A stretch of DNA of 64,000 nt from Taxillus chinensis (lineage: Eukaryota > Streptophyta > Magnoliopsida > Santalales > Loranthaceae): the NCBI GenBank assembly GCA_023512835.1, contig CM042085.1:50215569-50279568 (forward strand). Reading direction: 5' to 3'. Each line of letters opens with the position of its first letter. Position 1 is the first letter of the stretch. Position numbers and translations under genes: made by a program. The notes under the pieces are model-generated. The model did no database searches and was not told the origin of the DNA. It saw only the letters and a list, made by a program, of their open reading frames with translations. Shown one piece after another: positions 8,036 to 36,909 of the stretch.

Positions 8036-10684
8036 ATGGCAGCTCAAGCTCTCTATGGTGTTGTTCCTGGCCACTTGGTCGACTGGTCCGGAATCTCTGA
8101 TCCTCCAGCCTGGCTCGAAGAGGTTCGCCAGCTCCTTGATTCCAGCAACCTCCTCGCCCTAGTCTCTACCCTGGTCGATGTCCTCGTCTCTGACATTCTT
8201 GCCTTCTATCAGCATGTCAATTCCAGTGATGAGTCTATCATCTCAGTGGTCCGAGGGAAAACTATCAAGATCACCCCTCAGGTGATACGTGACGCCTTCC
8301 ATCTTCCCGAAGGCAACGATTTCAGGCCGAGCGCTCTAGCCATGGCTGCATCCATGGGCTGTCCCAACAAGGTAAAGGAGTACAAGTTGAAGTCTTTTCA
8401 GGGCCCCCATCGCTGTATGGCCACCATACTGAGCCGGTGCCTACTGGCTCGCTCCACAGCTCTTGACTCCGTTTCGTACGATCTGCTGCTGGCGATGTAC
8501 GCAGTTTTTGAGTCACTGCCACTTGACTGGGGCGTTTTCCTGTTTCGAGTGCTGTGGAATGGGAAACAGAATTCGTCTTTTGGATGGATTCTATCTCAAA
8601 TTTTCTGACACCTTCACCCCGCGCACTTCCAGGACGAACTGGTGATTCCCTTCCCAATGAACTTCTACTTCCGTCATCTTACTGCAGACGAAACACTCAC
8701 CGTTCGCCGCCCTCCAATCTCCCGTGCTCTTGTTGTTGTGTCGGAGCAGCAAGCGAGTTCTGTTGGTGACCCAGTTGCAAGCTCGGGTCATGAAGTTAGC
8801 TCTGCTCCCCGGTCCTTCCACTCCCGTATCCGGTCTGCTGCCGCTCCGGCACGGTCCCGCAGTTCGCTGCACAGCGTTCGCGCTGACCCGTCTACTACTG
8901 CAGGGCCCTCTCAGCCGGCCATCCATGCGGCTGTCTTATCAGCTCTCCTGCTGCTGGTCCTGCTTCTCCTCCAGCTGTTGTTGCTGCTGCTTCTGATGCT
9001 GCTGCTGACACACCCACACCCATCTCTCCGGTCACAGCAGCCATTGCTGCTATTCTACCCGAAATCCCTATCTCTTCTGCGGAAGCTTCTCCAGCTCACT
9101 CTCCTGTCCCTAAGGACTACATCGACCATCTCTCCACCGACCTCCTTACTGACTGATGGCTGCGTTTCAGCCTCGCTCACACTGCCGACATCCCAGAACC
9201 TACCCTCCGGGTGTATTACACTCAACACACCCAAACCCTGGAGGATATGATTACTTGGAACTGTGCTCATGGCTTTCTGATGCCGTCAATCCTTCAGGCT
9301 CCCATTCCTGCTACTGCCTCATCCGGACCTGCCCACGACGCACGGACGCCCATCCTTGCGGAGGCTGGTCTCTCCCATCCTACGGATATCCCTACTATTG
9401 ACCTCTCCGGTCAAAGTGGCTCTACCGCCCCTGTAGCTGCACCACCATTGGACTCTCCGGCTGCTGCCGACTCTGTCCTACACACACCTGCTCCTCTTCA
9501 AGCGGCTGAGTCCTCTAAGGCTCCTGCCTTTGGCCTTGGGCACGCATCCTTTGCAACAATTCTGTCCGAAGCCGCCTTCTCTGCCCCAACTTGATCGACT
9601 TGCGGAGGATAATCGTCTTCAGACCCAGGCCATCGCTGATCAGGTCAAGGCCATTGGCGCCGAGATTCTTTCCGCTCTCTCCTCCTCCTCTCTCTCCTTG
9701 GATCAAAAGCTCGAGATGATTGCCACATCTCTTCAGGGCTTGTCTGCTTCTGTCACGGACTTAACCCAAGTTGTGACTCGCCCCTCCCGCTCTCGCCGAT
9801 CTGCCAAACTGGGGGAGAAGTTATCTGAACCTTCCACTTCCTCTAGCGATGCTTCTCGCAAACGGTCTGCACTTGCTGTTTCATCTGGCACTATCACCTT
9901 CCTCCCATCATATGCGGAATTTCATCCAAATGATGTTGATGAGAGCATTCTTGATGCTGCAAAGGCCTATGCCTTCTCAACTGCCGAGCGGCGATGTGTG
10001 TCCGTCTTGTCCCCCTTCGAACCTAACGACATCCGAACCTTGGTGTTTGAGGAGGGACAATTCTCCACTGACGACATTGACAACTACGCCCTGGCAATAA
10101 AAATGGAAATGAGGTTGTTCCCCTCTTTACTTGAGGAAGGCCATGACTTTGACATTCTACCTTGTTGGGTTGAGGACCAGTTTCCTTCTGTGGACACCAT
10201 TCATTCCTACATCAATGGTATAGCTGAAAATAGCAGACCCTGGAGAACTCTGTCTACCGTCTTCATCCCTTACTGGGTTAACTCCCCACATTTCATGCTG
10301 AATGTATTTCTGATCAAAGAGAAGAGAATCATACTTATTGATTCTCATCCGCTTGATGACCGCTAAATTAGAAGAAATCAAATGAGGAGCCTCGTTCAAA
10401 CTTTGTCTGATGCAATCACACAGAGTACTCTTTACGAAGATTTGGATCTACCTCCTCTTGGTCAAGATGAAGTACTTGCAGGGACGATCCGGAACAAGAA
10501 GAATGTGCCTCAGTAGCCCGATGGAAACAGCTGTGGAGCCTTCGTCTGCTTCTTCCTGAAATCAGTTATTACATTTGATGACAACTGGAACAATGTCATC
10601 AAATTCACCAGTAAGCAGACGATGAAGCTACGAGAGCATGTAACAAGAATGAACTTTAAATATAGTAAGCCATATGTACCATAA
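8036..10684 (+). pseudogene. SirA1 ORF3: plant-transposon N-domain plus Ulp1-like (C48) protease domain, broken
   Basis: The chosen start, ATG 8036, follows the leader; an upstream in-frame ATG exists at 7919 inside the TATA region. Residues 1-190 resemble the 'putative plant transposon protein' family, with HLVDW, a DILAFY motif and VRGKTIKITPQVIRDAFHLP. The middle (8650-9600) is Ser/Pro/Ala-rich and shifted in frame several times; a helical segment follows (9590-9780). The C-terminal domain shows the Ulp1 layout: His at 10289 (PHF), Asp at 10340 (LIDS) and Cys at 10532 (SCGAFVC). Stops at 10364 and 10514 break it, the second exactly where the oxyanion Gln is expected. Ulp1-family enzymes process SUMO-like proteins; the target here is unknown. 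It sits between pol and the 3' polypurine tract. Confidence 0.8.
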
Positions 10685-10824
10685 GTTTCATCTGTATTAA
10701 GGCTTAATGTATTCTTGCTGACATATTAATGGAAATGTTTTTGCTTATCCTTAATTCTGTGTATTTCTTGCTGCCTAACCGGATCAGATTACAAAAGGTT
10801 TGGCATATCCATATTGGGGGAGAT
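10685..10824 (+). promoter_or_regulatory. SirA1 3' noncoding end and polypurine tract
   Basis: 140 bases separate the ORF3 stop from the 3' LTR. The tract TTGGGGGAGAT (10814-10824) ends directly at the LTR TG and would prime plus-strand synthesis. The sequence aligns by eye with 39829-39995 on the minus strand (SirA3), including the words before the tract, which confirms both are 3' ends of one family. Confidence 0.85.
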
Positions 10825-12066
10825 TGTTGGGTCAAACTCAGAATTTGGATGATGCAGATCAAACCCTATGTAATTTGATTTGAGATGTTCCATGTTTATT
10901 CTTAGTCTGTGCAGAAGATAAAACTTTAATTCGGACCTACTCTCGTAAGGACAAAGCCAAGGACAGGATACATAATCTTGATCCGGATCATCGTGAGTGT
11001 CATCATTCACTTGGTACATAACTAAGGTATCATCCGAAGTAAGGATCCTTTATGAAGAGTAATCACTTGACAAAACGACCAAGGAACCCGCGTCTAACTT
11101 TCAACTAGACCATGTCAAGTGATACGGAGTAAGATTTCGAGTCTACAACTCGCACGGAGTAAGAGAGACTTGTTGCGGAGAACGAATCGAAGTTGTCACT
11201 CCACCGAACCAAGGAAATAAAGACACGGACTATGAAATCTGAGTCTGTCACTGATGCAGAGTAAAGACAACTGTTACGGAGTAAGGGAAGCTAACGCGGA
11301 GCAAGGAATCCGAACCAATCGCTAATGTGGAGTAAGAACCTACTTTATGCGGAGTAAGGAAGCGCTTACCTGGAACAACGATTCCAGGACTGTACTGATA
11401 CGGAGTAAGCAACTACTGACATAGAGTAAGGATCCGAACTTCGTTGATACGGAGTAAGGAACCTTACTACTGACTAAGAAGATGCTGCTTCCCCTTTTCT
11501 AAGCCGCATTTAATGGTCAGCTCGTTGTGTCCCGATGAAAGACAAACTCATTGAAGATCTAAACTATCTTACACGTGGAACACTCAGAGATGTGGACGCA
11601 GTCTCAAATGCAATTAGAATCAAGCAAAGTAATTCATTACACTTATACTTCCAATATTTCGAACTCCACATCCGTAGCAGTTAAAGCAGAAGTATTTTCC
11701 GAGAAGAACTTAATGTTACACAGTGCTCGGGATATACAGTTCCAAGATAGATTCATAAGAATGTCTATAAATACAAAACTGTGTATATTTATAAAAAAAG
11801 CGTGAGCAAGAGAGGCTGTTCAATAAGAGCTTATAGAGATTATAAACGCAGTGTGTGTAACTGTAAAATTGAGTGCTATTGTAATCAGCTGTAATTGCTG
11901 CTTATTTTGTTGTAATTATCATTAGATAATAAAGCAAAATACTTCTACTATCTGGTTATCTTCCGCACTGATTCTATATCTTTTAACCAGATTGTGATGT
12001 ACCTGTGAGAGGAAAGAGTTTTGACTTTAGCCTATTCACCCCCCTCTAGGCTACTAGGGACCAACA
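10825..12066 (+). repeat. SirA1 3' LTR (1242 bp)
   Basis: The LTR begins TGTTGG and ends CCAACA, a perfect 6-base terminal inverted repeat. A polypurine tract precedes it. A TATA box, TATAAATA, lies at 11766-11773 and the conserved near-terminal block TTCACCCCCCTCTAG is at about 12035-12050, as in the other SirA and SirB LTRs. U3 holds an array of GGAGTAAGG motifs (11030-11470). The next bases are internal copia sequence of SirA2; GAGAT before and GAAAT after the LTR differ by one base and are not claimed as a target duplication. Confidence 0.92.
11030..11470 (+). repeat. GGAGTAAG minisatellite-like array in SirA1 LTR U3
   Basis: CGGAGTAAGG and close variants recur roughly every 25-40 bases, about ten times, separated by unrelated sequence. 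The same motif, read as CTTACTCCG on the plus strand, is clustered in the minus-strand LTRs at 15330-15660 and 38190-39420. The spacing is irregular, so this is a dispersed motif cluster and not a strict tandem repeat. It may be a CpG-rich enhancer; that is inference. Confidence 0.8.
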
Positions 12067-14675: not shown

Positions 14676-14720
14676 TGTTGAGAGAGAAAGAGTGGGATCT
14701 CTACTCTGAGTAGGTAGAAC

Positions 14721-14733
14721 TGCTCTGATACCA
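14721..14733 (-). promoter_or_regulatory. SirA2 primer binding site (initiator tRNA-Met)
   Basis: The minus strand reads TGGTATCAGAGCA two bases after the LTR end, complementary to the 3' end of plant initiator tRNA-Met. It marks the start of minus-strand DNA synthesis and fixes the LTR edge at 14736. Confidence 0.93.
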
Positions 14734-14735
14734 CT

Positions 14736-16039: not shown

Positions 16040-16206
16040 AAGAGATGGTCAAGCTAATGACCATAACTAAGCGCTTCATGAGAGGCAGCCCATGGTGTAT
16101 CCTTTACTTTAAGCTAAATTTATTTTTAGACTACAACCTTTGGTTCTTCAAGTCTCCAGACTTAGACTATAATTTGGCAGCTTCATCAAATCCTGTGTTT
16201 CCAACA
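16040..16206 (-). repeat. SirB 3' LTR remnant (U3 start only)
   Basis: On the minus strand it begins TGTTGGAAACACAGG at 16206, after a polypurine tract, and continues about 170 bases. About 70 bases match the start of the 5' LTR near 27250-27319 almost exactly (GCAGCTTCATCAAATCC on the plus strand). The rest of the LTR is missing at the junction with SirA2. Confidence 0.85.
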
Positions 16207-16615
16207 ATCTCTCCCTATTTAATGTAAGCTGACAGCGGTGAATACATGAAGTCTGACACTATGAGTTTGATGGGCCATTTTGGATTAATCGGAAGATATC
16301 TTTGTATATAACGAATTTGGAGGAGATCAACATTTCAAAAATACACACTCCTCTCCCCCGTAGGCATGAAGTTGCGTTAGCTGGCTCCTGTCAAAGATAG
16401 CTCCCCCTACGAGCTTGCTCCCCCTGAGAAACACTCTCCCTTTTTGGGGTGAGGAACAAGCACCAGAACACAGACCTCATGGGAGCAATGGAATAAATCA
16501 CAGAACAGCAGGCAGCAGAGCAAAGACATACATAAAAGGTAACTGATAGAAAGTAAGTACACAGAGAAATGAAAAGCAAGAAATGCAGTGTACAAGGAAT
16601 TAGATTACAAGATAG
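16207..16615 (-). other. SirB 3' noncoding region with several polypurine tracts
   Basis: 409 bases between the ORF3 stop and the 3' LTR. The minus strand has AGGGAGAGAT directly at the LTR edge (16207-16217) and further GGGGGAG-type blocks near 16356, 16408, 16427 and 16437. No gene is supported. The arrangement parallels the repeated tracts of SirA1. Confidence 0.75.
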
Positions 16616-19600
16616 TTATGGGTTAAATTTAGAGTAGAGTACACTCTGTGTAAACAGAAAAATAGTAGCTTGCTCGCGCAGGAGTTGAGCAGGAGTCAAA
16701 TGTAGCGAGGCAGCTTGACTGCTCACACGATCAAATTCAGGCACGAGAGCTGGGAACCCATTGGTGGTCAGGATGTGAATGTAATGGCAAACATAGAAGC
16801 CGCAGCTATGAGCATCATCCTGAGCAGGAATGCCTTGCTTGACTCGAGTAATTTCCATCGGTTTGGAGAGATAATAGCCACCACACCCATGAGAATATCC
16901 CTGCATGACACGGGTGAGGGTGCAGTTGAATTCAAGGAGTTGTTCACGCTGATGGATTAGTAAAGTACTAGGTTTGGAGTCGAAGATGACGATCCATTGG
17001 TTCTTGAAGTCAATATCGAGAAAAAACCAGTGCGGGGAGGTTGACAAGTATGGGATAAGCACCTAGTCTACCTCATTCCATGGACGAAAGGAATTCTCAT
17101 ATCTGCAACCCTGTATAATCTCTATCATTGCTGCATCATCAAGGAGCTGAGCCTGCATGATCGGCAAACAGAGTTCCACCCGGATATCTCGGCGGATATG
17201 GAGAGGCAGCTTCTCGAGGTATGACTTCTGTGCAAAGATGAACTGAGTCATCTCAATATTATCCATTTCTTCACCGTCATGTAGGAGTCAACATAAGTCT
17301 GGACCAGTGAAGAAGGCTTCGTAGCCACACGTTCGCGCAGTTGTATCCCCAGCAACATAGGTATTGAATGCAGCCAGTTCAGCTGAGGTGCCTCCAGTTG
17401 TTACAATGCGAGGTGGGGCTAATGGTTGGTCGGTGGTAGTAGCAGCTGGTTTAGTAGGTAAAGTAGGCATGGTGTACTCAGCCGTACTTGGATGGGTAGT
17501 GGAAGGACCAGGCTGAGTAGAAGAAGATGGTTGGTAGGGAGCAGCTGTCTGCTTCTTCATACGGGTTGCAATGGGAACATCATCATCATCATCAGAATCT
17601 GGGATGACAGTGGTTCTGTGTGCGCGCTTTCTCCCCCGCATGTAAGTGGCAGTAGATGGAGGTGGTGAGTGACTCGGGGAAGGCATGGCTGGCTATGGAG
17701 TATCTACAGGTTCAGGTGTAGGCCGGTTGGATGACTGTGGGAGTGTCTTTGATAGTGAGAGATATTTTGCCATTGGCAAGACGATGACATTCAGAAAGAA
17801 TAGCTCCCAGAGTTGTACTGAGTCCTTTGTATTGTCTCTGGTAAGCTCCTTTAATGTCTTCACAGTGTTCCTCCAGATGTCTAAACCCATCGGTGGTCAC
17901 ATGTGTGAGTGATGTCATTTCTTGCTGCACCTTGTCTAGGGTACGGTCTGATAATTCAACTTGAGTTCGTACTTCTTCCATACCTGACTCCATGTTAGCC
18001 AGTCGTTCTTCAAAGGCCTGAGACACTGATGTTTTGAGGATGCCAGAGGAAATCAGTTTCTCAATGACCTTGCTAGCTAGAAGATCTACTTCTTCTGCTG
18101 TCAGGGAACATGAGAGAGACGCAACTGGTACTAGGATAGCCATTGGGATATTGGCTGCGAACTCCTCACTTGCTTGAGTGGCCACTTGATGAATTATAGG
18201 TGCAGATGGTGTGGCCATCTCAGTCCTTTCCACAGTCTCAGGGACTTGTGGGATAGCTCCTACATCAGAGTCACTGGCTGCAGCACCAGGAGTTTCTTCT
18301 TCTTCTACTTCTTCTTCTACCACAATTTGTACCACCTCAGCATCATGAGGAGTAGATTTGACTGGTGAGTCCACCATGATGGGAGATGGGGCAACCATTG
18401 ATACAGCTTCCACTGGGTCTCTTCTTATAAGACCCTGATCAACCAACCAATTAATCAGATAGTCTCTATCTACCATCTGCTTACCAAAGGCGATCCATGC
18501 CTTTCGTAAATCTGCGGGGGTCATATGAGCCTTGGCATATTCCATATAAAAATCTTCTAGCTCAGACTCCCCAAGAGAGCTCAACAGTACAAGTGTAGAA
18601 CCCCTATCCTCTGGGGTTTCTTGTGCTGGTGTCTGCCCTCCATCTGCAGGTTCTCTAACTTCGGCAGTATCCTTGGGCAGCTCGGTAGTAGGGGCCTCCT
18701 CAGGTGTAGAATCAGTGGGGAGATGAGTTCTGGCAATGTTCTCCACCACTTCAGCTATATGTATTGTTGCGGCGGACGCAGAGGAGCCCCTAGAAGTATG
18801 TGGGACACGAACCGGCTGTCGTGGAATGTGAGCTGGGGCCTGTACTGAGCTAGCTGTGGCCCCTGCATGACTTCTTGCACCTGACTCAGGCCTCTTCATC
18901 GACTTGATCTCCAGCTGACCATCTTCATAAATGCTTTTAAAGATGTATTTGGTCGGCAGTGGCACTAAGGGTCTGTTGCAGAATATGTCAAGGTGTAGGA
19001 ACCTTAGGACTTTGGTGAGAAGTAGTCCAAAGTGTCCCTTCTTGCTTTTGATCGTGGTGTGTATCTGAGTTCCCCAGTCTACTCATCTTCCCTGTAGAAC
19101 ACTACACATGATCTTCATCTGCTCATGCCTTTCAGAGTCATGAGCAGTCTTCTTACACAGTAGGCACTATCCGGTGACTATGAGAGTCACCAGTGCCTGA
19201 TCGGAAAACCCAATCTTCAGGGCTCCCCGACCTTGCTTTCCGGGATTGGAATACCCAAGAAAAGACTTACACTCTTCTCTGGAGAGACTGGGAAGAGGAT
19301 CAAAGTTACCTTTTGGTAGTGGAAGTGCATTGCGGAGCGTTTCGGCTAAGACTCGAATCTCCACCCCGTGTACAGTTCCCACAAGGTCGTCTCTAGCGAG
19401 TACCATGGTCTCGTAAAATTCCGAGACATCTTCTATCAACAAGTCTTGCATCCCTGTGTAGACATATGCAATACCAGTATCATCGAGGCAACTTCTGAAT
19501 TCGTTCATCCAGCTGACTTTGGCGTAGCCTATGGCTTCCCAATCAATGACGAATCCTAGAATGATGTTGTGTAAATCGTCGGCCATCGATGAGCTTGGAC

Positions 19601-19634
19601 CTGCCATGGAGCTTGTAGAGAGAGAAAGAGACAC
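16616..19634 (-). pseudogene. SirB ORF3: plant-transposon N-domain, coiled middle, Ulp1-like (C48) protease
   Basis: Three parts are read on the minus strand. The N-domain (19634-about 18990) contains FVIDWEAIG, DVSEFYE and a VHGVEIRV segment and ends in a stop-broken CLLCKK...VDWG region that matches the layout of SirA1 ORF3. The middle (18965-17712) is acidic, Pro/Thr-rich and then helical. The protease part (17686-16616) shows His 17032 (PHW), Asp 16981 (FDS), Gln 16822 (PAQ) and Cys 16804 (SCGFYVC): all four Ulp1 residues. Stops lie at 19167, about 19070, 17288 and 17063, with a frameshift near 17700. The 17063 stop (DxVL) is probably CAG to TAG. Function and substrate are unknown. A frame ATG at 19604 is an alternative start. 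Confidence 0.82.
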
Positions 19635-19793
19635 TCATAGAAAGAGATTGTAAGGTTCGAAGGTCGTCAAGGGAGAGAGAAAGAGAGAAAGGGACAGAAT
19701 CAAAGAGAGAGAGAGAGAGTTCTAGGGTTAGGGTTCGAGTGTGAAAACGACGAACATACCTTTGAGCTTCGTCTCTATTAGTGACTTATATAT
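19635..19793 (-). promoter_or_regulatory. Putative internal promoter and leader of SirB ORF3
   Basis: On the minus strand a TATATAA-like box lies at 19786-19793. A double telo-box (AACCCTAACCCTAG) lies at about 19722-19735, followed by a CT-rich stretch leading to the ATG at 19634. AAGGTATGT near 19755-19763 resembles a splice donor. This matches the TATA, telo-box, pyrimidine-rich order found before SirA1 ORF3, though the sequences are otherwise different. Function is inferred. Confidence 0.5.
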
Positions 19794-21248: not shown

Positions 21249-22680
21249 TCATGATAGGTTGCACAAAGGACTTGAACCAGGTTTAGAGGTGGCAATGTCT
21301 TGGTCTTCTACAATGACAATGTCCTGCACTTCATTTACATTTGGGTCTCCTTTCTGCATTCCATGGTTAGTCTCATCAAAAAAAAAATGAATAGACTCTT
21401 CAACAACTTTGGTTCTTCTATTAAATACACGATAAGCCTTGCTAGTCATGGAATATCCAACAAGATATCCATCGTCTGATTTGGCATCAAACTTGTTCAA
21501 GTAATCCTTGCCATGTACACCCGAAGATCCTTAGGTGACCAATGTTTGGTTTCCTTCCCTTCCATAACTCATAGGCTGTTTTCATGGCTCGTTTGTTAAT
21601 TAGAGTTCTGTTTTGTACATAACAAGCAGTGGCAATAGCTTCAGCCCATAGGGATTTTGGGAACTGAGCTCCTGTCAACATGGTTCTAGCTGCTTCAACT
21701 AATGTTCGATTCTTTCTTTCAGCCACTCCATTTCGTTGTGGAGTTCTTGGTGCTGAGAAATTATGCTAGATACCATGTTCAGTACAAAACTCTAACATAT
21801 CAGAAAATTCAAATTCCTTGCCATGATCGCTACGAATGTACTTAATAGAAAGACTTAATATTTGTGATCCAATTGAAGAGTTCAACAAGATTCTCAAATG
21901 TTTCAGTTTTGTTTTTGAGAAACATGACCCATGTGTATCTGGTATAGTCATCTACTACTGCAAGAAAGTATCGTGCACCAGATAGGGAAGACACATTTAT
22001 TGGTCCACATAGGTCCATATGCAGAAGTTCGAGTGGTTGTGTGATTGAGGTTTTATCTACACTTTTAAAGGAATGTTTAACCTGCTTACCCAGCTGACAA
22101 TCCCTACAAAGGTGTTCTTTCTCATAAACATGCTTGGGTAAGCCCTAAACCAAATCAAGAGATGCCAGTTTAGACATAGTCTTAAAGTTCAAATGGCCAA
22201 ATCTCTTGTGCCACAACCAACTAATGTCAGGTGAAGCTTTGGATAGAAAACAAATTGGTTCAGCAGATTGAGCATTACCAAAGACCAACTTGTAGACATT
22301 GCCTTGTCTATGTCCATTTAGTTTCACCTCTTTGGAGACAGGGTCCATAACTGTGCAGGTGTGTTTAGTGAACAAAACTTCATAACCTTTGTCACACAAT
22401 TGACTTATGCTCAATAGGTTATGTTTAAGACCTTAAACAATAGATACATTTTGAATTGAAACAGAACCATTAGAGAGAGTGCCCTTACCAACAATCTTAC
22501 CCTTTTTATTGTCCCCGAAAGTGACAGATGAAGCTGTAACCTCCCTTACCTCACCCAATAGAGAGGCATCATCTGTCATGTGCACAGAACAGGCACTGTC
22601 AAGATACCACTGGCTGGAATTGATCTTTTGTTTCCGGTGGCTGCTTCTAGCTTCTGGTACCTATTCCTACACAATGAGCA
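21249..22680 (-). pseudogene. pol: SirB protease and integrase remnant
   Basis: Protease has YLDSACSVHMTDD near 22600, keeping the catalytic Asp. The pre-integrase motif SWLWHKRFGHL lies near 22200. The integrase core runs from CRDCQLGKQ (about 22105) through MDLCGP (about 22015), a broken SDHGKEF segment (about 21830) and AERKNR (about 21720). A post-core segment with KAYRVFNRRT ends near 21249. Stops and frameshifts lie near 22431, 22145, 21900, 21765 and 21500. Sequence typical of the integrase-RT linker is present, then pol stops. Confidence 0.88.
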
Positions 22681-25275
22681 ACTAAGTCTTGGGGGCCCAA
22701 TTCAGATTGGGCTTTGGGTAAGTGAAAGTTGCAGTTGACAATTTAGGTTTCCAATAATAAGGGGCAGATGTAACTTTCCATGCTAATCTTGGTGATCCTT
22801 CATTAGAATTGCTAGTAGGATTAATCTTCAGTTTTTCTACACATTTTCCTTCCTTATTGTTATCTTTGGCAGCTTCAGTAGGCACAGGTTTGACAGTTTT
22901 CTTCACAGGTTTGGTCTTTAAGTCTTTTGAATGGGTAGCCTGTGTGTGCCTGGTTTTCCTATCAGAGTTGTTGCACTGCAGATTTTTAGAGAAATTCAGC
23001 TGTTTAAGGTTTACCCTGATTTCTGTGGCAATTTCCTTTCTAAGATACTCAAGGTAGAATCTGCACTGATAGGAGAGGTGTCCAACTTCACAACAGATGG
23101 GGCATTTGACGGGTTTGGGTTGAACACTCTATCTCAAGGGTTTTGCTGGAGTGTTAATAGGTTTCCTAGGTTTTCTCACATATCCTAGACCGTTCTTAAC
23201 TCTTCCATCAGAGACAAACTTGGGCTGGAAGGCAGCAGCCTTGCTGGATGAACCAGTCTCAAATGTAGTAGTGTGTCTACTTGGTTTCGTCTCTGGTATA
23301 ACTACACCCTTACCATTGCATTGGGATGTAGAGGACAGGTTGACTAAAGGTTCAGCTTTCAATTCTATCTTAGCAACTATTGCATCACTGTCCTGAGATG
23401 CAACAGTACCCAGGTCTTTGAGTTCGATTGTTACTGGTTTGGGTGGACTAGCAATAGCCATTGGTACCTCCTTTCCATAATCAAGGAGCACACTGCCAGC
23501 AGGAACAAAGCCAGCAAGACACTTGGTCTGTACAGGGTAAGTCTAGGCCTTGGCTATTTGGTCTTTAGAGATACCTAGACCTAAGGCTAGACCTTTAACA
23601 TCTGGAGTGGTCCTAAAGTGGGCTGCAATTTCAGCAGAATCTTGCCACTTTTGACTGATTTGTCTTTCCTTTTCCAGTTCTGCTTTAATTTCAACTAGTT
23701 CCTTTTCAAGCCTATCGATGTCTTTATTAGCCATTTTTAGTTGTACAGCTTTGTTCAACAGATCATCGTGTGTGCTTCTCATCTCACTCACTTCAGCTCT
23801 TAATCTTCTCTCTGTTCTTTCATAATCATCTATAGAGTCTCTATATTCACATGAAAGTTGTTCCAGTTTAGAATAGTATCTTTCTTTGTCAGCTTTCATA
23901 GGGAGAAATTGTTCCTCTATGTCTTTTAGAGCTCTATAGGTATCTTCATATTCAATTTAGAGCTGTTCATAGGTTCTTACCTTGAGGGGAGGTGAATTAT
24001 CAACCATGAAGCAGATAAGACCCTTTTATTTCTTCTCTTCATCAGAAGATTCTTCTTCCTCCTCAGTTTCACTGTTGAATTTGTTAGTGACAAGAGCCTT
24101 CTTCCTCTTGTCATCCTTTTTGCTTGAGGAGCCTTTGGTCTTCTTCTTCTGCTCAGCTGCCTCCTTTTTCTCCCTCTTCCGCTTATAACTGTCGGCAGCG
24201 AAGTGGTCGGGCTTGTTGCAGTGGTAGCATTACAACTTCTCCTTATCCTTTCCCCTAGAAAAGGATGAGGACACTGCCTTGCTTTTCTCCTGTAGTTCCC
24301 CCTTCTCTTCAGCAATTTCTTGATCAGAAATGCCACTTCTTCACCTGAGGCACTATTTGAAACAAGTTCATCAGCTTCATCTTCTTCCTCTTCTGAAGAT
24401 GGTTCCCAGGGTTCAACAGCAGCTTTAAAGGCAACAGACTTCTCCTTTTTCTTGGAAGGGTTCTCAAATGCCTCAAGCTCTTCTTTTTGTATTTCAAACG
24501 TCTTGAGGTCCCCATATAATGCTTCCAAGGCACAAGTCTTCCATTCCTTCAGCTGATGGATGGCTGATGTCTTTATCAGCAATCTCAAGGGTAGAAATCT
24601 CATAAATTTGTCATTCTTGTCCTTCTGAGAGATCTCAACGTTGTAAGTCTTCATCCGTTGAATTAGACCTGTGAACCATTTGTAGATGTTGTCCAATGAC
24701 TCCTTCGGTTCACATCTGAAAGCTTCATACTCTTGCTTGAGCATGGAGATCTTGTTATCTTGTATTTGCTCGTCTCCCTCGTAGATGAGACAGAGCTTGT
24801 CCTATACCACTTTAGCAGTCTCAAGATCCTGCACATCTGTGAACATGTCATCATCGAGTGCAGAGAAAAGTATGGCTTTTGCCGTGAAGCCGAGCTTTAC
24901 TTTCCTCTGCTCCACCTTAGACCAACTATCTGGGTCTTTTGTCATTAACCGACCTCTCTACATAATCTTTGGAGTGAAAGGTCCGTTCTTTATTGTTTCC
25001 CATAGATACGTGTCGAGCATGTCTAGGTGTGCTCTCATCCTTGCTTTCCATTTGGAAAAATGAGCAGGTGTGCCCATAGGTACTTGGGAGGATGAGCCAG
25101 GAAAAACATCATAGAAGTCTTCTTGTTCTTTCTTGTTGCTGTTGGTACTCGGTTCTTCCTACTCCTGGTCTCCAGTCGCTCCTTCCTCTAGAGCACGACT
25201 GGCTTCAAGTTCCTCAATAGGAACTGGAGCTTGCTTGGGAGCTGGAGCTGCACTGCTGGAATCCATGTCGGCCAT
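22681..25275 (-). pseudogene. gag: SirB gag with two zinc-knuckle sites
   Basis: The start is ATG 25275, about 25 bases after the primer site. The N-terminal part (25275-24300) resembles UBN2/DUF4219 copia Gag. A knuckle near 24235 reads CYHCNKPDHFAADS, with Ser in place of the last Cys. A coiled segment (23899-23600) follows, then an intact CPICCEVGHLSYQC near 23060-23100. Frame breaks lie near 25155, 24955, 24800, 23960, 23543 and 22940. The two-knuckle layout matches SirA2. The product would package element RNA. Confidence 0.87.
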
Positions 25276-25300: not shown

Positions 25301-25314
25301 CTGCTTTGATACCA
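25301..25314 (-). promoter_or_regulatory. SirB primer binding site
   Basis: The minus strand reads TGGTATCAAAGCAG two bases from the LTR end, complementary to initiator tRNA-Met with one change from the usual TGGTATCAGAGC. Confidence 0.9.
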
Positions 25315-25316
25315 AT

Positions 25317-27319
25317 TGTAGGTCCCAAAGTGAGTCTAGAGGGGGGGTGAATAGACTTTCTTCATGTGTGGAAGCTAGACTGTTAGCTGGTTTGGATTCC
25401 TCTACAGATGACTATGATGGAAGTATTTATGGAGAAGACGACAATAGTATTGTGAGGATAATCGTGAGTGATGATGAACTATCAGACAAAACTGAGATAA
25501 AAGTAAATGCTCTTTTCTCAACAGATCTCAGTTGTGAAAAAGATGGTTTATGATAGATCGAAGTGTGGAAAACAAACAACACAGAGATCAAGACTTAATG
25601 GAAGTGCTAGATCTTTTATGAATAACAAGGTTCGTGAATAATCAGATAGGTTGCTCTTGTTCTCAATTCAACACGGCACACAGCACTTCTTTGAATTCTC
25701 TCAGAGTCTCTCTCTCTATGGTTGGAACTTTTTTTTTTGTTGGTTCTGCAAAGGACTATTTATTTCAAGTGTGTCTTTCTTGTGTTCTGTGTGTTTCCTT
25801 CTTTTGAGAGAGAGGTTAAACTCAACATCTTGTCGTTTTGTGTGTGAGAGATATATTTTTAAAATTAAAGTGCTCGTGCGCCATGATGTCCATCTCGACA
25901 GACTGACTTCCCACCACTGAAAATGCGGAATGTCAGGGGATGGGTTAATCTGCTTTGATTTGCAGATCAGATGCCCATACTGCGTATTGGCATGCAGTCG
26001 ATCTTGGCCGTTAATCCATGGATCGTAGTTGGCAGCAATTAATGTGTCATTAATGCGCTCAACTGCTCGGGACGGCGCAGACTTGTTGTACGAACCCTAG
26101 CTGACGATATCGCTAAGTGACTATGTTTAGGGTTGTAAGTGTGCCTCGGAGGTAGATGCCTCGTAGGTTCGATGACTCGAAGATTTCAGTTAGAACATGT
26201 AGGAAGTTGCGAAGTTTTGCTTCAGGCTTTATAGTGTTTCTGCGAGTCTACGACTCATATCTTCGAGTCTTCGAGGCTAGAGTTCAGGTTAGATTAGCCT
26301 TTTGTGTCACTCCGTTAACTGAAGTCTACGACTCTGCGAGTCAACGACTCTACGAGTCTGCGACTCTTCGAGTGACGCTTAGAGTAACTCCTTCGTAGTC
26401 CGTCTAATCTGCCTGTTATTATAGCTACGGGTCTACGACCTTCGGGTCTCTCAGCTTACTATATTTGACTAAGTGGCTCTGACAATCTTCGACTCTACGA
26501 GTCTCAAACTTCGCTTTTCTTCCTTAGTCTTTCATAGAGGCTCATATACTGAGTTTCTGCACGGCTACGACCCTTCAGCTACAACTCTCAGCCATCGATC
26601 TCCGAGTCTGGAAGTGTGGCAATTTCTTTATAGTGACTGTATCCTTTGAGTCTACGCGTCTACGACTCTACGACCCTTGAGTTACAGTTTCATTTGTTTA
26701 CCAGTCTTTATAGCATCGACTCTTCGACCTTCAACCTACGAGTCTACGAGTCCTGTTTTCTTAACAGTGTTTGAAGGTTTGGACTCTACGACTTTCAACC
26801 TATGAGTCTACGAGTCCTATTTGCTTAACACTGTTCGAAGACTTCGATTCTACGAGTCTGTGAGTCCTGTTTTCTTAACAGTGTTCGAAGGCTTCGACTC
26901 TACGACTCTATGAGTCTTCGAGTCTAGTGGTAGTTCAAGTTCTGTTAATTGACTTAAGTGTATGTAGGGACTCTACAGTTCTACGGGCTGCGAGTCTATG
27001 AGTCATTAGCATTGGTTACTATTCTTTAGAATTCTTCGACTCTACGAGTCTCCGAACTTGTCGATGCTTGCAGTAACTCTCTCTTTTCCATACTACGACT
27101 CTACGACCTTCGACCCTGGATATACGAGTCACCAAATGTTTTGTCACCATCTTGCTTCGAGTCTCCAGACCCTACGAGTCTGCGAGCCTCCCGCCAATGT
27201 GTCCTGTGACAGTTTTACTTATACGAACTACGACTCTTCGACCCTACGACCTTCGGTTCTTCAAGTCTCCAGACTAAGACTATAATTTGGCAGCTTCATC
27301 AAATCCTGTGTTTCCAATA
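25317..27319 (-). repeat. SirB 5' LTR (2003 bp)
   Basis: On the minus strand it runs from TATTGGAAACACAGG at 27319 (terminal TG changed to TA; the 3' copy keeps TG) to GGGACCTACA at 25317. The conserved block TTCACCCCCCTCTAG lies near 25332-25356. U3 is dominated by CGACTCTACGAGTC-type motifs (26150-27260). Directly beyond 27319 is Tek2 internal sequence. Confidence 0.88.
26150..27260 (-). repeat. ACTCTACGAGTC motif cluster in SirB LTR U3
   Basis: Short words such as CTACGAGTC, GACTCTACG and CTTCGAGTC recur dozens of times in both orientations over about 1.1 kb. ACTCGTAGAGT-type palindromes are common, so the single strand could form many small hairpins. Every unit carries a CpG. The SirA LTRs have a different CpG-bearing motif in the matching part of U3. 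Confidence 0.82.
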
Positions 27320-30391: not shown

Positions 30392-30499
30392 CGCATTGGC
30401 CACAACAACAAACAACAAACGATCAATATTAGCACTGCTAGCACAAACAACCATTAAAGGCGCAACCGACTTGTACGTTCTCACCACACGACCCGTAGG

Positions 30500-31994
30500 T
30501 GATAGCGTGCATTTTATGCCGTTATTCTAGTGCTTATTTAGGATGTTTAAGAGCATGATTAGAGCCTTATTGCTTCATATATTATATATATTTGCTCTAA
30601 CCCCTAGGAAGATGCTATTAGCAAATACATGCGTTTTTAAGCTGTTTTGGCAGATTTTGGAGCTCACTTTTGACATAGTAAATGGCCTCAAACAATTAGC
30701 ATGCAAGAACAAAAGTTGCTTAGAATGATGTCCTCTACCTACCACAGAAATTTCAGAGCATTTGGAGCTGCATGTGAATTCACCCATTTCACGTGCAAGC
30801 CTATTTTTGCCTCTCATGCCTCTACAGGATGCAAGGAAGCTTGGGGAGAAGTTTGAGCTGATTTGGAGTTGCACGTGAATTCACCATATCACGTGCAAAT
30901 TGACGTGCAGAGATATTTTTGGACCGATCCTATCGTTTTTCCATGCTGATCATTTGTTTCTGAAGGCCCATGTCCAAATTGTGGATGGAAGACAGAGATT
31001 TTAATGTTTCGAGTGTTACTTATCAAAACTACGCCGTTTTGATAAATAGGCTAGGGTACACACCTCAAGGCCCATCCAAACTCTATAAATAAGAGCTCCA
31101 CGCCCCCTGCTATGCATGCTAGACCCCCTACACGTTTTTAGAGAGAGAGAGAGGCTCCACGACTTGGAGGTTGCTCCTTGACCTAGGAGAGCAGCCATCG
31201 CAGCAGCCGTCGCGGATTTTGGAGCTTGGGTTGAAGCTTTGCTGTGCGCGTGGATTAGAAGAAGATGTTTGGCTTTACTGCTATGGTTTTTCTTGTAATC
31301 ATGCGTGAGTAGTTCTTATAATCTAGGGGAGCAATGTAGCCCCCTTGTTTCTTTGCTGTGTTTATGAATATTGGGTTTGGATGATTGAAGTTTTGCATGT
31401 TTTATGAATCTGTTCTTAATTCTATCTTTGGATGTACACCTTGGTATTCTTAGCCCTAGTCTGGGGCAGATTGAGATTCATAACTTATTTGTAATTGGTG
31501 TGATCATTATCCTTTTGCAAGTATGATTTATTGGCTTTGCATGTTTGTGTGTTTAGATGACCATTCTGGCATACAACTCTTAAAAGGACCTCAATGACCA
31601 TTTGTTGTCCTTGGCTTATATTTAGCATGTTTTCAATCAGACATCCCTAATACCATGAACCAGTAGAGAAAACATAGGGAGGTGAAATTGTGACCCTAGA
31701 TGCTTTTAATCCTTGAATCTTAATCCTAAATTCAGTTTGTTTTCTTTGTTTATTCAGAAAACCAAATAAAAATTAGATCTTTAGTTTAAAAAAGAAAACT
31801 TTTTGCCAAGACATTTTATAGAACAAGAGTAATTGGGTGTTTTGATTTGAGAACTAGAGAACTAGGCTAATCCCTGTGGGTTCGACCCCTTGCTTGTTGC
31901 TATTCTTTTAGTGCAAACTTAGGGAATTTATTATCTTGAAGAGAGATTTAACGACATTAGCTAGCTCTTGGAGAGGCTAAAAATCTGTCTGTCA
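30500..31994 (+). mobile_element. Solo LTR (1495 bp) of an Athila/Tat-like gypsy element, target duplication GTAGG
   Basis: It begins TGATAGCGTGCATTTTATGC and ends CTGTCTGTCA, flanked by GTAGG at 30495-30499 and 31995-31999. A TATA box (TATAAATA) is at 31084-31091, so it lies in plus orientation. The near-terminal words CCCTGTGGGTTCGACCCC (31875) are typical of Athila/Tat LTR ends. No internal coding sequence, primer site or second LTR is present, as expected after recombination between two LTRs. It interrupts a tandem repeat in the Tek2 leader, so it is younger than Tek2. Confidence 0.88.
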
Positions 31995-32388
31995 GTAGGT
32001 CCGCAACCATGCATATAGCATCGTGTCCCCCCTCATGGTACACCACACGACCCGTAAGTCCACAACCATGCATATAGCATCGTGTCACCCCTCAGGGTAC
32101 ACCACAATTAAGTCCTCGCTCTCACAACCACGTGCCATCCAGGCACTAAATGCAATCACATCACACACAAAGACAATCTAGTGCCCTATATGCACACAAT
32201 CATACCACTAGGAAAGCATCCATGCCTACATATGCTCCTAGGATGATCTAACTGTCACCAACATAACCGAGAATACATGTAAGGACTGCATTGATCAGGT
32301 GCCCTCCCTACAGTTTTCCAAGTCACATGGAATCAATTAATCACCCCTCACTAACCTAGGTCCGCTAGACCATGCTATGATACCAACT
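31995..32388 (-). other. Tek2 leader with a tandem repeat, plus primer binding site
   Basis: A unit of about 60 bases containing CCACACGACCCGTA and CAACCATGCATATAGCATCG is present twice. One copy (30482-30499 plus 31995-32041) is split by the solo LTR, and the second lies at 32042-32095. The rest is untranslated leader. The minus-strand primer site TGGTATCATAGCATGG lies at 32370-32385, with one base changed from the usual initiator tRNA-Met complement, and is followed by the LTR at 32389. Confidence 0.85.
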
Positions 32389-34636
32389 TGTCACGCCCCC
32401 AAATTCCAAGGAACCCGAAACTAGGAACATGACTTCCCCTTGCCCGCACCCGATAGGTCAAGGGGTTGGTGACTAGCACCAATGGAGACTACACCGCGGG
32501 TGCTGTCTCAAATATGCAACCCTATAAAGTCATACATCAAGGGTAATCCTGTACTTTCCCATATATCATCATGCACACAATGAACAAAGTCAAATAGTCA
32601 TATAGACATCACATCATAAACAGTATGCAAATACAACTGTCCATGGACCCATGTCCGAGATATCACACAAAACAATACAAAATATAATACTGTATCATAC
32701 ATCAGAGTAGTGGGCGTCCTCCTGGAAGAAAGTCCTCCACTAGTCTCGGGTCACACCTGAAAAAGGTAAACAGCAAGTAGGGGTGAGCGACAAGCTCAGT
32801 AGGTGACCCCAACACTCCACATCATGCAAACATACAAGACTATACTACATGCTCTGTGTACTCGTGCACTGTGTATTGTGCACAATCACTAGGACTCAGC
32901 CTGCAAACAACATCAGGACCCAGCCTGCCCACACAGGACAGCTTGTCCATGATCCTCCATAGGATCGCAGCTCAGGGCACTCAGCTCTAGCTCCATGAGC
33001 TCAACAGCTCAACTGAGGCCTTAGCCTGTCCACAGCGTAATATGCTCGGCCACAGTCGCCACACAGGCCTGTCATCGGCACATATGCCTGCCACGTCCAC
33101 CACATAGCACCATCGGTACATCACGGTGAGAACCTAACAAGTCATAGAGCCTAAGCCCCAATCCCTCAAACCAACATACCAACACCAATATGGTCTTAAG
33201 GTATACAACACTCCCTTTAAAACTGTAGCCAGTCTTCACCCATCGATCCTCATTCCTTGACTAAGGAAGGAGATACCCATAGGAGTTGTTTTCTTGAAAT
33301 AAAAAGTCCCAGCATTGGGTTCCCATAGCATAACTAAGATAATCTGTTTTTTGGGGATTTTTCTGAGATGTCTAACCCCACTTTTCAAAAATTCACCTTT
33401 ACGAAAAACTGAATTTTTCCGAGATTTTACACTAAATCGCAATTTTCACATTTTGAAGGAGTGGGAATTAATTTTTCTAGTATTTTTCTTTGAATCCAAA
33501 TTGGGGGTATTTCCTTATTTACATTGTAACTTAAGTATTACTTAGGCATAATGGTTTACAATGTAAATAGTCCAGTGCAGTTGCACTACTGCGGTACACT
33601 GCTGCGGATTGATGCTGCGGAATGGATGCTACGGATTGAGGCTGTGGAGTGGATGCTACGGATTCATGCTGCGGAATGGATGCTATGGATTGATGCTACG
33701 AAAACACTACTGCGGAGCGAAGCTACGGATCACGCTGCTGATCTGGACTACTGATCCGGACTAATTACTCCGGACTACTGATCCGGACTAACGAAGCTGC
33801 TGACTCCACAGCTGCTAACTCCACAGCTGCTCACTCCATAGCTGCTGACTACGAACCTGCTGATTCCCTAGCTGCTGACTACGAAGTTGCTGATTACGAA
33901 CTTCGACCCTTACAGTTTGCCCAGGTTACTGTTCATCATCGTTTTTGGTCTAATTTTCGTCTGGGATCAACCCAGCAACCCCAAGACACTCACAAACACG
34001 CGTTTTACTAAACAGAGTACAAAATTACATACCCAAACTGATATAAATCAGTTCTTACCCACAGATCTTTGGCTAAATCATTAAATCTAACCTAAAAATT
34101 GGGTTTCCCCCAAAACCTAGGGTTCATGCTCAAATTCATAAATCATGATAAATTCATGCATATCCAAAGACAGAATCGAGATAAGAGGTTCAAGGATACC
34201 TACTTCAAAAGATTATTTGCGATCCACGAACTCCAATCGCCCCAAATCACCAAAGGAAGCTCTTCACCTTTTCTCTCTCTTTCTTGCTCAAACACGCACG
34301 TACCAGGCAAAAGTAAAGGGAAAAGGCAATTTCTTAATTATTTATACTGCTGCCAATAATTGGCCTCCTGAGGTCACGAACTCCAAATTTAGTCAAATTA
34401 CTGTCAAAACGCTCGAAATGACGAGCACAACACTATTCAGATATTACCATACTCAATTGACTGCTCAAACGTAAAGTCGACCAATAAACCCCGAAAAGTC
34501 AATAATTGGGTCAAATGGGGCCCCGACTCAGAATCGGGCCCAAGTACAGTCAAAATGCTCACATCGACAACTACACTACTATTGCATTCCCATAGAATGA
34601 CTATCTCTCCAAACTACCCAAATACGAGTCTTTACA
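32389..34636 (-). repeat. Tek2 5' LTR (2248 bp)
   Basis: On the minus strand it begins TGTAAAGACTCG (34636) and ends GGGGGCGTGACA (32389). A TATAAATA box lies at 34339-34346. A block at 33240-33540 (containing AAAAAGTCCCAGCATTGGG) is strongly conserved with both Tek3 LTRs. Next to it lies a CpG-bearing short-repeat cluster unlike theirs (33590-33930). Confidence 0.9.
33590..33930 (-). repeat. Short-repeat cluster in Tek2 LTR
   Basis: The plus strand shows repeated ATGCTGCGGAATGGATGCTACGGATTG-like units, each shorter than 30 bases (33601-33730), then ACTACTGATCCGG units and finally GCTGCTGACTACGAA/GCTGCTGACTCCACA units to about 33905. The cluster directly follows a GTTTACAATGTAAATAGTCC segment, shared with the Tek3 LTRs, where an unrelated CTGCTCGA repeat follows instead. 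Confidence 0.82.
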
Positions 34637-36909
34637 CGCGCAGGGAGGTAGCCTCACCAGAAGCCTCAGCCCCATCCTCTCCTTCCGAGATAAAAGGAGA
34701 AGAGGAGATTTTTATTAGATACGTGCTAGACTGGGAGGTTTTAGAATCATCAAATATTGATTGGGTAAAGAAGTGATGTTGAAGCTTCAAACCCTTAGTT
34801 TAAAGAGGTTAGTCTCTGGCCGAAGTGATTTATTCTACCCTACTATGCATGAGTTCTATAACTCAGTATATGTGAAAGATGAGGATGATGAAATAATTGG
34901 AGAAGTTCAAGGAATTTTAATCTCTATTTCACCTGTTATGATTAGAGACTATTTTGATCTCCCAAATCCTTCACAAGAAATCCCTAATTTAAGCTTAGGA
35001 GCTTACGGTAGAACTTTTAATTTCAATAGGGAATTTGGGAAAAGAAGGCAGTTTACCAAAAATGGATTTGTAGGGAAATATAGATGCCTTGCCCACTTGG
35101 TAGGAAAGTGTCTATTGTTGCAAACTAGTGGGGTTGATTCGGTGCTAAAATCTTATCTTAAGTTTATTTACTGCATTGATCATCAACTAAATATTAACTG
35201 GGCAGGTGAGATATTTCAGCTTTGGAAAAGAGATGTGAATAAACGATTATATGGGAGGGTGTTGAGCATGTTGTTTCACTTTTAGTATGCACACTTGTGT
35301 GTACATATAGAACTTACCATTTTCGTATCTAATTTGATATTGAGAGTCCTTCTACCTGAAGGGGCTTTAGGGGTTAGTTTTAGAGGGAAATGGGGAGCTA
35401 GTACTCCCATTGTACCGCAGCCCTCACGGCATAGTGTGCATATGGAAAGGCCTGCTGAACATTCTAGATACACATCTACTCCCATGAATGCAAGAAAACA
35501 GCATATATTCCAGTTGACTGCTCTCTACATGCAATATAATGTCCATAAGGCAAATGTGTATAACTTCTTTCAAGGAATCAGTGGCCAGGTTATAAGTGAA
35601 GCTGAGGTGATCAATTGGGCCTTCACTAATGGCCACATAACTCGTATCAAGTTGGAGGAGTTGTTGGAATTTTTATCCCAAGACCAGCAAGCAACCTCAT
35701 GATCGACAGCAAGAGCATGGGAAGCCCCTGATCCACCATTTGGCTCATCTTATGAAGACTTGAAGTGAAGAACAGATCAACTTCAAGAAGAACAGGCCAT
35801 GATAAAGCAACAAATTGGACAATTGCAAAAGAGCCAATCCCTTTTGATCAAATAGCAAAAAGAAGTAAAGGGCATATTGGGAAAAATTTGGAAAGCTTTG
35901 GGCAAAAAGAAGAAGTCTATAAAACCCCAAGTTATAAACCTTTCTGAGGAGACAGTACCTTTAGCGCAGCCTGAGTTTGATCAGACAGAGGAGACACCTG
36001 AGTACCCATAATACCCCCAGGAGGAGGAGACTTATGCTTATTAGCCATACTTTCACCCAGCAGCGCCAATTTCATTTGAGCCTCAGTCAGGCCCTAGCTC
36101 TTCTCATGCTCTCATTCCAATGATTCAGCCTCTACAATGGTGGTCTGGTGTTTCTTCAGAGGCTGCACAAGAGGATTTATTGGGGAAGCCAGTATATGTG
36201 AATATCAATCCAGCTTTGTCAACTCCTGAGGCCACGATAGAGTTTGAGCAGTTTCTTCAAGGTGCAGCTTGGCAAGCACGATTTGCTAGGGATTCTGAAG
36301 TGTTCACATCGTCCTATCTGCAGCGGATCTTAGCTAATGAATATTTATGTGCGGATGATGTTGATCTTTTTTGCAGAACCATGCGGCATGTAGTGGAGGC
36401 AAAGCCTAATGACTACCCTATGGCACAATACACTTCCATCATATTGTGTGAATTGTACGAGCAGCCTCTGGCAGAGCATGTTCTTCGTCAAAGAATAAAT
36501 GGAGCTGCAGGAGGTCCTCATCCCTGTCCTTGTAGACCGCCATTTTGTGCTTCTTCAATTGGACCTAAGTGTGGGACATGTGGTGTTGTATGATCCTTGC
36601 CAAGCACATGGATTTGCAACATGCAAGAAGAAGATAGTTCATGGTTTCTTGAGAAAAGTCAAAGAAGCACTCAGGAAAGAGGGGCTATTGACATCCAAGT
36701 TCCCTCTCATGCACTTCAATGAAATGGAGCTTCCCCAACAGCCTGACCAGCTCAGCTGTGGGATTTTTGTATGTTATTATTTGATAGCTCTGTTGCAGCA
36801 TAAGGATACCTGGGAAATCACAGGGGAAACATCTGCTGAATTTGTAGTGCGCCTTAGGACTATGGTGGCCCATGTTATCTTCTTCTATAGCTTACCCACT
36901 CAAAGGTAG
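34637..36909 (+). pseudogene. ATH ORF3: plant-transposon N-domain, coiled coil, Ulp1-like (C48) protease
   Basis: The start is lost at the Tek2 LTR edge. The N-domain (34670-35290) has VLDWEVLESSNIDW, MHEFYNSVY, VQGILISISPVMIRDYFDLP and a CLLLQT...INWAG segment, the same landmarks as in SirA1 and SirB ORF3. A helical Gln-rich segment lies at 35760-35860. The protease part (about 36200-36909) keeps His 36541 (RHF), Asp 36592 (YDP), Gln 36739 (PQQPD) and Cys 36757 (SCGIFVC), with the same His-Asp spacing (17 residues) as the other two copies. Most of the gene lies in one frame with stops at 35283, 35700 and several between 35760 and 36060, plus frameshifts near 34765 and 36510. The substrate is unknown. 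Confidence 0.8.

Follow-up and report, generated by a model that had tools for sequence, protein, structure and literature searches.

A candidate Ulp1-type protease gene in the env position of Copia and gypsy retrotransposons of Taxillus chinensis

Introduction

What is the gene that some plant long terminal repeat (LTR) retrotransposons carry behind pol, in the env position, and how might it serve them? A review (PMC7264820) mentions proposals of an envelope, a movement or a chaperone function for such genes. The question is raised here by a 64,000-nucleotide stretch of the Taxillus chinensis genome (contig CM042085.1, positions 50,215,569 to 50,279,568; hereafter the window), in which three elements, designated SirA1, SirB and ATH, carry similar genes. 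A sequence-only reading of the window had described a plant-transposon domain joined to an Ulp1-like protease, lying between pol, or the expected place of pol, and the 3' polypurine tract (PPT) in three retrotransposon lineages. The analysis below suggests that these genes probably form one post-pol family, in which an N-terminal PF20167-like domain (N-domain) is joined through a coiled or low-complexity region to a cysteine protease of Ulp1/SENP type (C48) at the C-terminus. The gene and its placement are almost certain, and, judging from the copies compared, it is reasonably likely that Sireviruses (Copia), and at least one Athila-type gypsy element, carry it as a regular component in the env position.

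A two-domain gene in three elements of the window

The SirA1 gene (8036..10684, plus strand) has an N-domain at 8036..8707, a C48-like domain at 10151..10684 and several in-frame stops. That of SirB (16616..19634, minus strand) contains stops and at least one frame change, with the N-domain at 18900..19634 and the C48 catalytic core at 16616..17062. The ATH gene (34637..36909, plus strand), also broken, has its N-domain at 34729-35282 and its C48 domain at 36499-36906. The N-domain motifs named in the sequence-only reading (DW, an EFY-type motif, V-G-x-x-I and LP) were recovered in all three, with the DW of ATH in another frame, and the C48 domain, described as having its Cys in SCG, shows the reported spacing of 17 residues between the catalytic His and Asp in each of them. 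The catalytic tetrad H-D-Q-C is complete in SirB and ATH, in line with the two complete copies that had been stated; SirA1 has H, D and C (the last within SCG) but a stop at the catalytic Gln codon (10517-10519).

Profile searches, proposed as a check on these frames, bore out part of the domain assignment. With curated Pfam cut-offs of 45 bits for PF20167 (Transposase_32) and 20.7 bits for PF02902 (Peptidase C48), PF02902 was found above its cut-off in SirB (39.5 bits, 7e-10) and ATH (40.5 bits, 4e-10), and PF20167 matched SirA1 (4.6e-6) and ATH (1.2e-6) below its cut-off; the SirB N-domain gave no PF20167 match and the SirA1 open reading frame (ORF) itself no PF02902 match. Direct comparisons were more informative. 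TBLASTN analyses linked the N-domains of SirA1 and SirB (1e-18), SirA1 and ATH (2e-17), and ATH and SirB (1e-6), as well as the C48 domains of ATH and SirA1 (9e-10) and of SirB and SirA1 (1e-5), the weakest C48 pair being SirB and ATH (0.011, or 0.008 in the reverse direction). Scores of 68-231 were obtained in six pairwise protein alignments, and the highest among 200 shuffles of each were 40-51. Identity between window copies was 0.51-0.60 at codon position 2 versus 0.22-0.34 at position 3, indicating that the protein and not the DNA is conserved. The catalytic pattern H-x16-D...Q-x5-CG occurred twice in the six-frame window, at the SirB and ATH genes, and 0.62 times on average (at most 3) in 200 shuffled windows; given this background the pattern alone is weak, and the claim of homology is carried by the alignments. 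These alignments establish the three genes as genuine homologues in both the N-domain and the C48 domain. Since the SirA1 and SirB integrases are 64-70% identical (two pieces) and their N-domains only 27%, the post-pol gene evolves faster than pol.

The number of lineages had to be lowered from three to two, with SirA1 and SirB representing two families of the genus Sirevirus (see below). A position between pol and PPT holds for both of these and not for ATH, which has no pol in the window and is followed by a PPT-like tract only. The original observation is thus partly confirmed, being right for the two Sireviruses and half right for ATH.

Copies across the genome and the gypsy side

A search of the T. 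chinensis genome (521 Mb, 264 contigs) returned 4308 loose PF02902 candidates, of which 150 were scored, and all 150 exceeded the Pfam cut-off. Twenty 10-kb stretches (L017-L036) were picked from those 150 for their long frames, not at random. PF02902 was above cut-off in all seven genome frames scanned, and the N-domain was found upstream of C48 on the same strand in 18 of the 20 stretches (not in L025 and L035). Copia pol lay upstream on the gene strand in 12 stretches and gypsy pol in one (L021), in agreement with the recurrent place in Copia and gypsy elements that had been suggested. The Copia copies have the order integrase/reverse transcriptase (RT)/RNase H, linker, N-domain and C48 on one strand. 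The distance from the end of RNase H to the start of the N-domain was 1841-1921 nt in 10/10 stretches measured (L019 and L023 of the 12 were not), and that from the N-domain start to the C48 end 2751-3017 nt in the same ten. A Sirevirus PPT-LTR junction (GGGGGAGATTGTTGG) followed within 600 nt of the gene in 10/20 stretches and in two of the eight short loci L009-L016. The gene is therefore not confined to the window: genome copies share the pol-linker-gene-PPT arrangement with near-constant spacing.

LTR sequence flanks the gene on both sides in SirB and in L027/L038. L027 holds both domains in a single frame of 1059 aa (the N-domain detected by TBLASTN, with no Pfam PF20167 match), and L038, upstream of it, contains the primer-binding site (PBS) TGGTATCAGAGC and 492 nt of LTR with 94.9% identity to the 3' LTR, the first 1.2 kb of the L027 3' LTR having no counterpart in L038. 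An LTR pair was looked for in L024/L037 and not found.

On the gypsy side, an LTR of another gypsy family (33227-34636) abuts the start of ATH (34637); gypsy and Copia pol proteins gave nothing better than E 0.08 in 30900-34640, and neither gypsy pol nor a tRNA-Asp PBS was found in that interval, where the flank is the other-family LTR and the element is perhaps truncated. Downstream are a PPT-like tract, AAGTGTGGTGTGGGGGGG (36958..36977, plus strand), and a region (37030-37518) that aligns to 31397-31883 with a score of 109, versus at most 43 in 20 shuffles. This similarity looks like that of an Athila-type LTR, short of proof; within the window, ATH can be called gypsy only by its PPT-like tract and weak LTR similarity. 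As ATH has no pol in the window, the gypsy side of the association rests on L021. There, gypsy pol (RVT_1 2.1e-30, RNase H, an H2C2 zinc-binding domain and rve, with RT before integrase) is followed by one frame of 674 aa with matches to PF20167 (7.1e-8, below cut-off) and PF02902 (5.6e-14). L039, just upstream of L021, has a tRNA-Asp-type PBS, recognized by a word that we take to be the tRNA-Asp one; the two LTRs of L021/L039 could not be matched to each other. RT before integrase, a tRNA-Asp-type PBS and a sense gene after pol are the features of an Athila-type element, a lineage for which tRNA-Asp use is described in part of PMC1142308.

In a C48 tree, the T-type sequences (ATH, L021, L011 and others) stand apart from the B-type ones (SirB and its relatives). 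The tree is unrooted and lacks the A-type (SirA1), so that the direction of a transfer between Copia and gypsy elements cannot be read from it. As a separate observation, the C48 frames of L011 and L012 (453 and 427 aa; G000:C2 near 27.77 Mb) resemble that of ATH and precede a PPT-LTR junction of Sirevirus type; here a C48 that groups with gypsy-type ones stands in Copia-like surroundings. The best C48 match of the genome, L009, lies on a small contig (G000:C191) without a TBLASTN match to element genes; its upstream part is acidic and of low complexity, and it perhaps represents contamination or another gene type.

Selection and catalytic residues

The ratio of nonsynonymous to synonymous substitution rates (dN/dS) was estimated by the Nei-Gojobori method on TBLASTN-anchored codons; stop codons were skipped, and a pair was excluded if its dS did not exceed 0.02, if it was saturated or if it had fewer than 40 codons. 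The median was 0.17 for C48 (20 sequences, 142/190 pairs; 3 with stops) and 0.26 (14 sequences, 89/91 pairs; 6 with stops) and 0.16 (16 sequences, 110/120 pairs; 2 with stops) for two pieces of the N-domain. The pol domains gave 0.34 for RT (11 sequences, 43/55 pairs; 5 with stops), 0.31 for integrase (9 sequences, 28/36 pairs; 7 with stops) and 0.10 for RNase H (13 sequences, 66/78 pairs; 3 with stops). At dS < 1, the C48 controls read in shifted frames reached 1.20 and 1.72 and those of the N-domain pieces 0.97-1.47, versus in-frame values of 0.20 (C48) and 0.27 and 0.18 (N-domain) in the same set, a contrast that is unaffected by sampling by C48 score. These estimates indicate that the gene is under purifying selection in the copies sampled. 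The suggestion that it is useful to the elements is supported by them and strengthened by the copies found in the plant's own genome.

The H-D-Q-C tetrad is intact in 19 of 20 B-type copies (L036 has lost the His) and in all eight T-type copies, a count (27/28) that covers copies aligned with E of 1e-8 or less, including SirB, ATH and the near-identical L011 and L012. Two A-type genes of different families, SirA1 (10517-10519) and L035 (L035:4055), have a stop at the catalytic Gln. Programmed readthrough at this codon was considered and dropped: ordinary decay suffices, because a third A-type copy, L059, has glutamine there and stops elsewhere are scattered.

Resemblance to SUMO proteases and a possible mechanism

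When the ATH C48 domain was compared with solved structures, SENP1 came first (9e-4), followed by SENP5, SENP2 and Ulp1. In B-type genes, a further feature lies between the coil and C48, a stretch like GRKRAHRTTVISDSDDDDDVPIATRMKKQ that was found in 19/19 B-type genome loci (E about 1e-5 or better) and in SirB (GRKRAHRTTVIPDSDDDDD; 17549..17635, minus strand). It consists of a basic, nuclear-signal-like patch joined to a hydrophobic and acidic part, the latter presumably akin to known SUMO-interacting motifs (SIMs). The core V/I-I-S/T-D-S occurs in 13 of the 19 loci and has diverged in L015, L017, L018, L034, L035 and L036. A scan with the B-type pattern revealed no such stretch in A- or T-type genes. 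Unbroken copies probably encode an active Ulp1-type protease, as far as sequence can tell; for its target, SUMO is somewhat more likely than the alternatives, namely a different ubiquitin-like modifier or proteins of the element itself. That the enzyme cleaves SUMO is what we infer from these resemblances.

The account that we favor overall, with some confidence, is a selected, env-position gene of SUMO-protease type that would work as follows. The protein would act in the nucleus, which the basic patch of B-type copies could help it to enter, and the SIM-like stretch could bind SUMO. The N-domain and coil might recruit it to the nucleoprotein of the element or to host silencing or transcription factors, and C48 would then strip SUMO off the target, easing expression or integration of the element. 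This benefit is proposed by analogy with the KIU and VANC genes of Vandal Mutator-like elements (MULEs), which bear an Ulp1 domain described as strongly conserved and, according to PMC13317346, lift the silencing of related Vandals, presumably to the benefit of these elements. Relief from silencing is, by this analogy, a tentative answer to what the element gains. In yeast, Ulp1 controls the level of Ty1 RNA, as stated in excerpts of PMC8585004.

Relation to known genes

Each part of this gene has partial counterparts in the literature. In sections of PMC11728184, sunflower Athila elements have a 3' additional ORF, aORF(+), with Transposase_32 (PF20167), a family connected in that paper with Athila ORF1 (PF03078). 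Like the present gene, it is in sense orientation, lies after pol and has an N-terminal domain of the PF20167 family, whereas it encodes 487 aa, no Copia counterpart is seen in the sections available, and the word 'protease' does not occur in the main text. The env-like gene of SIRE1 and other Sireviruses (PMC2829016 and PMC3599292, in extracts) occurs in the same genus and between pol and the 3' PPT/LTR; it is called ENV-like there, with no protease named in those extracts. The KIU and VANC genes of PMC13317346 share with the present ones an Ulp1 domain on a transposon, yet they belong to DNA transposons and the available portion mentions no N-terminal PF20167, whereas the present genes are in LTR elements and no terminal inverted repeats (TIRs) were found with them. 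C48 domains of mobile-element proteins are also described in fragments of other sources (PMC8978399 among them), located in the C-terminus of the Ginger1 transposase, in ORF2 of CACTA elements and N-terminal to RT in the non-LTR elements NeSL/Utopia, and not in an env-position gene of an LTR element.

Searches of an open-access library without most subscription journals, read as listings and as the papers cited here (PMC2836005, PMC4640811, PMC6317226, PMC8127270, PMC5240378 and PMC11963269 also among them), turned up no description of a C48 domain in an LTR element of plants; Repbase-type entries may hold unremarked cases. What was already known is the N-domain in an Athila 3' ORF, and what is new here is the protease and the Copia side. 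Searches for relatives in a protein database found none among 7997, 2352 and 228 candidates, which we ascribe to the absence of plant relatives, or of shared words, from that database and not to rarity, and scans of viral contigs found none either. Matches in genome contigs (eight loci, seven of them in one cyanobacterial bin, 29-44% to the integrase) were set aside as too distant for Sireviruses. In their own right, the loci of this metagenome-assembled genome (Trichormus; L001-L007) carry Copia integrase sequences, perhaps from a plant host.

Alternative explanations

The most serious rival to a SUMO protease is that C48 is the element's own maturation protease, cutting Gag or the product of its own gene, without a SUMO substrate. 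The adenovirus protease, which has a related fold, cleaves capsid precursors; the gene sits in the env position and is under selection like pol. Ulp1-like domains also occur in NeSL/Utopia and Ginger proteins, as described in part of the sources above. Against this, Copia and gypsy elements already encode an aspartic protease of their own, the solved relatives of the ATH domain are SENP1, SENP2, SENP5 and Ulp1, and a SIM-like stretch precedes C48 in B-type genes, which makes a maturation protease unlikely. A role as an envelope- or movement-like protein, with the C48 fold repurposed, for instance for binding at membranes or plasmodesmata, is less probable still: the gene shares its position with the 'env-like' genes of Sireviruses and Athila, but neither an intact cysteine-protease tetrad nor a SIM-like stretch would be expected of an envelope.

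Independent insertions of MULEs or CACTAs might also have brought Ulp1 genes into these elements, the observed order being due to nesting. C48 is present in plant MULEs and CACTAs (in the excerpts cited), seven stretches have no same-strand pol, and L020, L022, L023, L025 and L032 contain fragments of pol from other elements in the opposite orientation. Yet no TIR-like repeats flank the genes, although no search was aimed at MULE or CACTA transposase. Inverted repeats around the three window genes amounted to pairs of 20-25 nt with 74-76% complementarity, none of them around ATH; with low-complexity sequence masked, none of at least 40 nt occurred in 19/20 stretches, and that of L020 does not flank the gene (unmasked, L036 has simple-repeat inverted pairs of 35-60 nt). 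This search covered the fetched stretches, so that TIRs outside 10 kb would escape it; within them, no terminal repeats were found of the kind expected from the separate Mutator insertions once named as a possible refutation. Together with the near-constant linker in 10/10 and the Sirevirus junction near half of the genes, this makes such insertions very improbable, and for the B-type they are largely refuted. Equally improbable is a captured host ULP gene decaying as a useless passenger, since the broken state of all three window copies and the many stop-bearing copies in the genome list are outweighed by other results: up to a dS of about 3, dN/dS is much lower than 1, with frame-shifted controls close to 1 or higher; the tetrad is kept in nearly all aligned copies; and the gene is common to Copia and gypsy.

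A number of results nevertheless count against a selected SUMO-protease-type gene in the env position. Sampling by C48 score and long frames favors conserved copies, and the tetrad count leaves out SirA1, the A-type gene of L035 (stop at Gln), L010 and other stop-bearing copies. In 20 short stretches listed with one TAG, stops in the aligned part fall at several sites, mostly glutamine codons; three stretches have one at the catalytic Gln, and six are free of stops in this part. The dN/dS of the close pair L017-L034 is 0.56 (bootstrap 0.28-1.13). Similarity between these two loci extends over the gene and ends where the gene does, and no pol was detected on the gene strand in seven stretches (L017, L018, L025, L032, L034, L035 and L036), so that part of the copies may lie in a different setting. 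All PF20167 matches (27.1, 29 and 33 bits; E 4.6e-6 to 7e-8) remain below 45 bits. A match to a solved SENP below 0.001 was obtained for ATH only (0.69 for the SirB piece and none for the SirA1 ORF), and two AlphaFold models, with mean predicted local distance difference test (pLDDT) values of 38 and 41, were unusable. Finally, reduced Ulp1 function raises Ty1 in yeast (PMC8585004, in excerpts), which is opposite in sign to the proposal, so that any effect in plants could run either way.

Four of the stretches just listed (L017, L018, L034 and L036) form a B-like subfamily (57-59% in C48) without recognizable pol on their own strand; its members could belong to non-autonomous elements, or the subfamily could be a gene of the host. 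Direct repeats of L034 were considered as LTRs; parts of them also match other loci rich in transposable elements, and nothing was drawn from them.

Nested architecture of the window

Self-comparison and element signals revealed the window to be a set of nested LTR elements. The Copia pol of SirA1 (3489..6336, plus strand) comprises integrase (3489-4178), RT (4954-5865) and RNase H (6040-6336), with Pfam matches to rve (5.5e-10) and RVT_2 (7.9e-68); RNase H was assigned by eye without a Pfam match and has counterparts in genome copies. A linker of about 1.5 kb leads to the post-pol gene, which is followed on the same strand by a PPT one base off the Sirevirus octamer (10815..10824) and the 3' LTR, TGTTGG...CCAACA (10825..12066). 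A gypsy fragment truncates the 5' side of SirA1 near 3061. SirA1 is nested in a minus-strand Sirevirus, SirC (12067 to about 16040; protease part, gag, PBS and LTR), and SirC in turn in the 3' LTR of SirB.

SirB, on the minus strand, begins with a 5' LTR (25317..27319) and the PBS TGGTATCAAAGC at 25314, found by a PBS scan. Its gag, protease region and integrase (21249..24801) matched Retrotran_gag_2 (1.1e-5) and rve (2.5e-5) just below cut-off, and no RT or RNase H was matched with those of SirA1 as queries. A PPT at about 16207-16218 precedes the start of the 3' LTR (16041..16206), which is cut by SirC and recurs at the head of the 5' LTR (27317-27244; 74 nt, 96%). The SirB gene is thus inside its own two LTRs, the 3' one interrupted after about 166 nt. 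SirA1 and SirB show the Sirevirus features given in extracts of PMC2829016, namely Copia pol, the PBS TGGTATCAGAGC, a PPT of 10 bp before a TGTTGG LTR and linker AGGGGGAG octamers, except that the terminal PPTs are off the octamer, the SirA1 PBS is outside the window and SirB has no RT. Exact AGGGGGAG octamers lie at 6873 and 6909 in SirA1 (before the gene) and at 16408 and 16425 (after) and 20926 (before) in SirB.

The 3' end of a SirC-family Sirevirus (37559..40012, minus strand) comprises a gene end (FKYSKPYVP and stop), 3' untranslated region, PPT and LTR. This partial fourth copy shares the end peptide FKYSKPYVP with SirA1, with silent codon differences only, and one residue just before it is different. 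Within the SirC-type LTR there (38140-39761), a segment of about 0.8 kb is directly duplicated.

Significance

For the genes that plant LTR elements carry in the env position, a conserved cysteine-protease domain whose tetrad is intact offers an activity that is concrete and open to test. Its presence in Copia elements is at odds with a screen of 121 angiosperm genomes (PMC9289625) that saw no domain gain in plant Copia elements, although 'protease' domain classes had been removed by the filters of that screen. If one gene serves both Copia and gypsy elements, it would point to a shared need, perhaps the handling of host silencing or transcription through SUMO, and some 'envelope-like' genes of plant elements may thus act on the host SUMO system. 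More speculatively, and less likely than not, the 'envelope-like' genes of Sireviruses and Athila/Calypso elements might be a single ancient gene for a nuclear SUMO protease that moved between Copia and gypsy elements and, in certain lineages, has a SUMO-reading stretch of its own. If true, the third gene of the plant 'endogenous retroviruses' would be due to the SUMO pathway rather than to infection.

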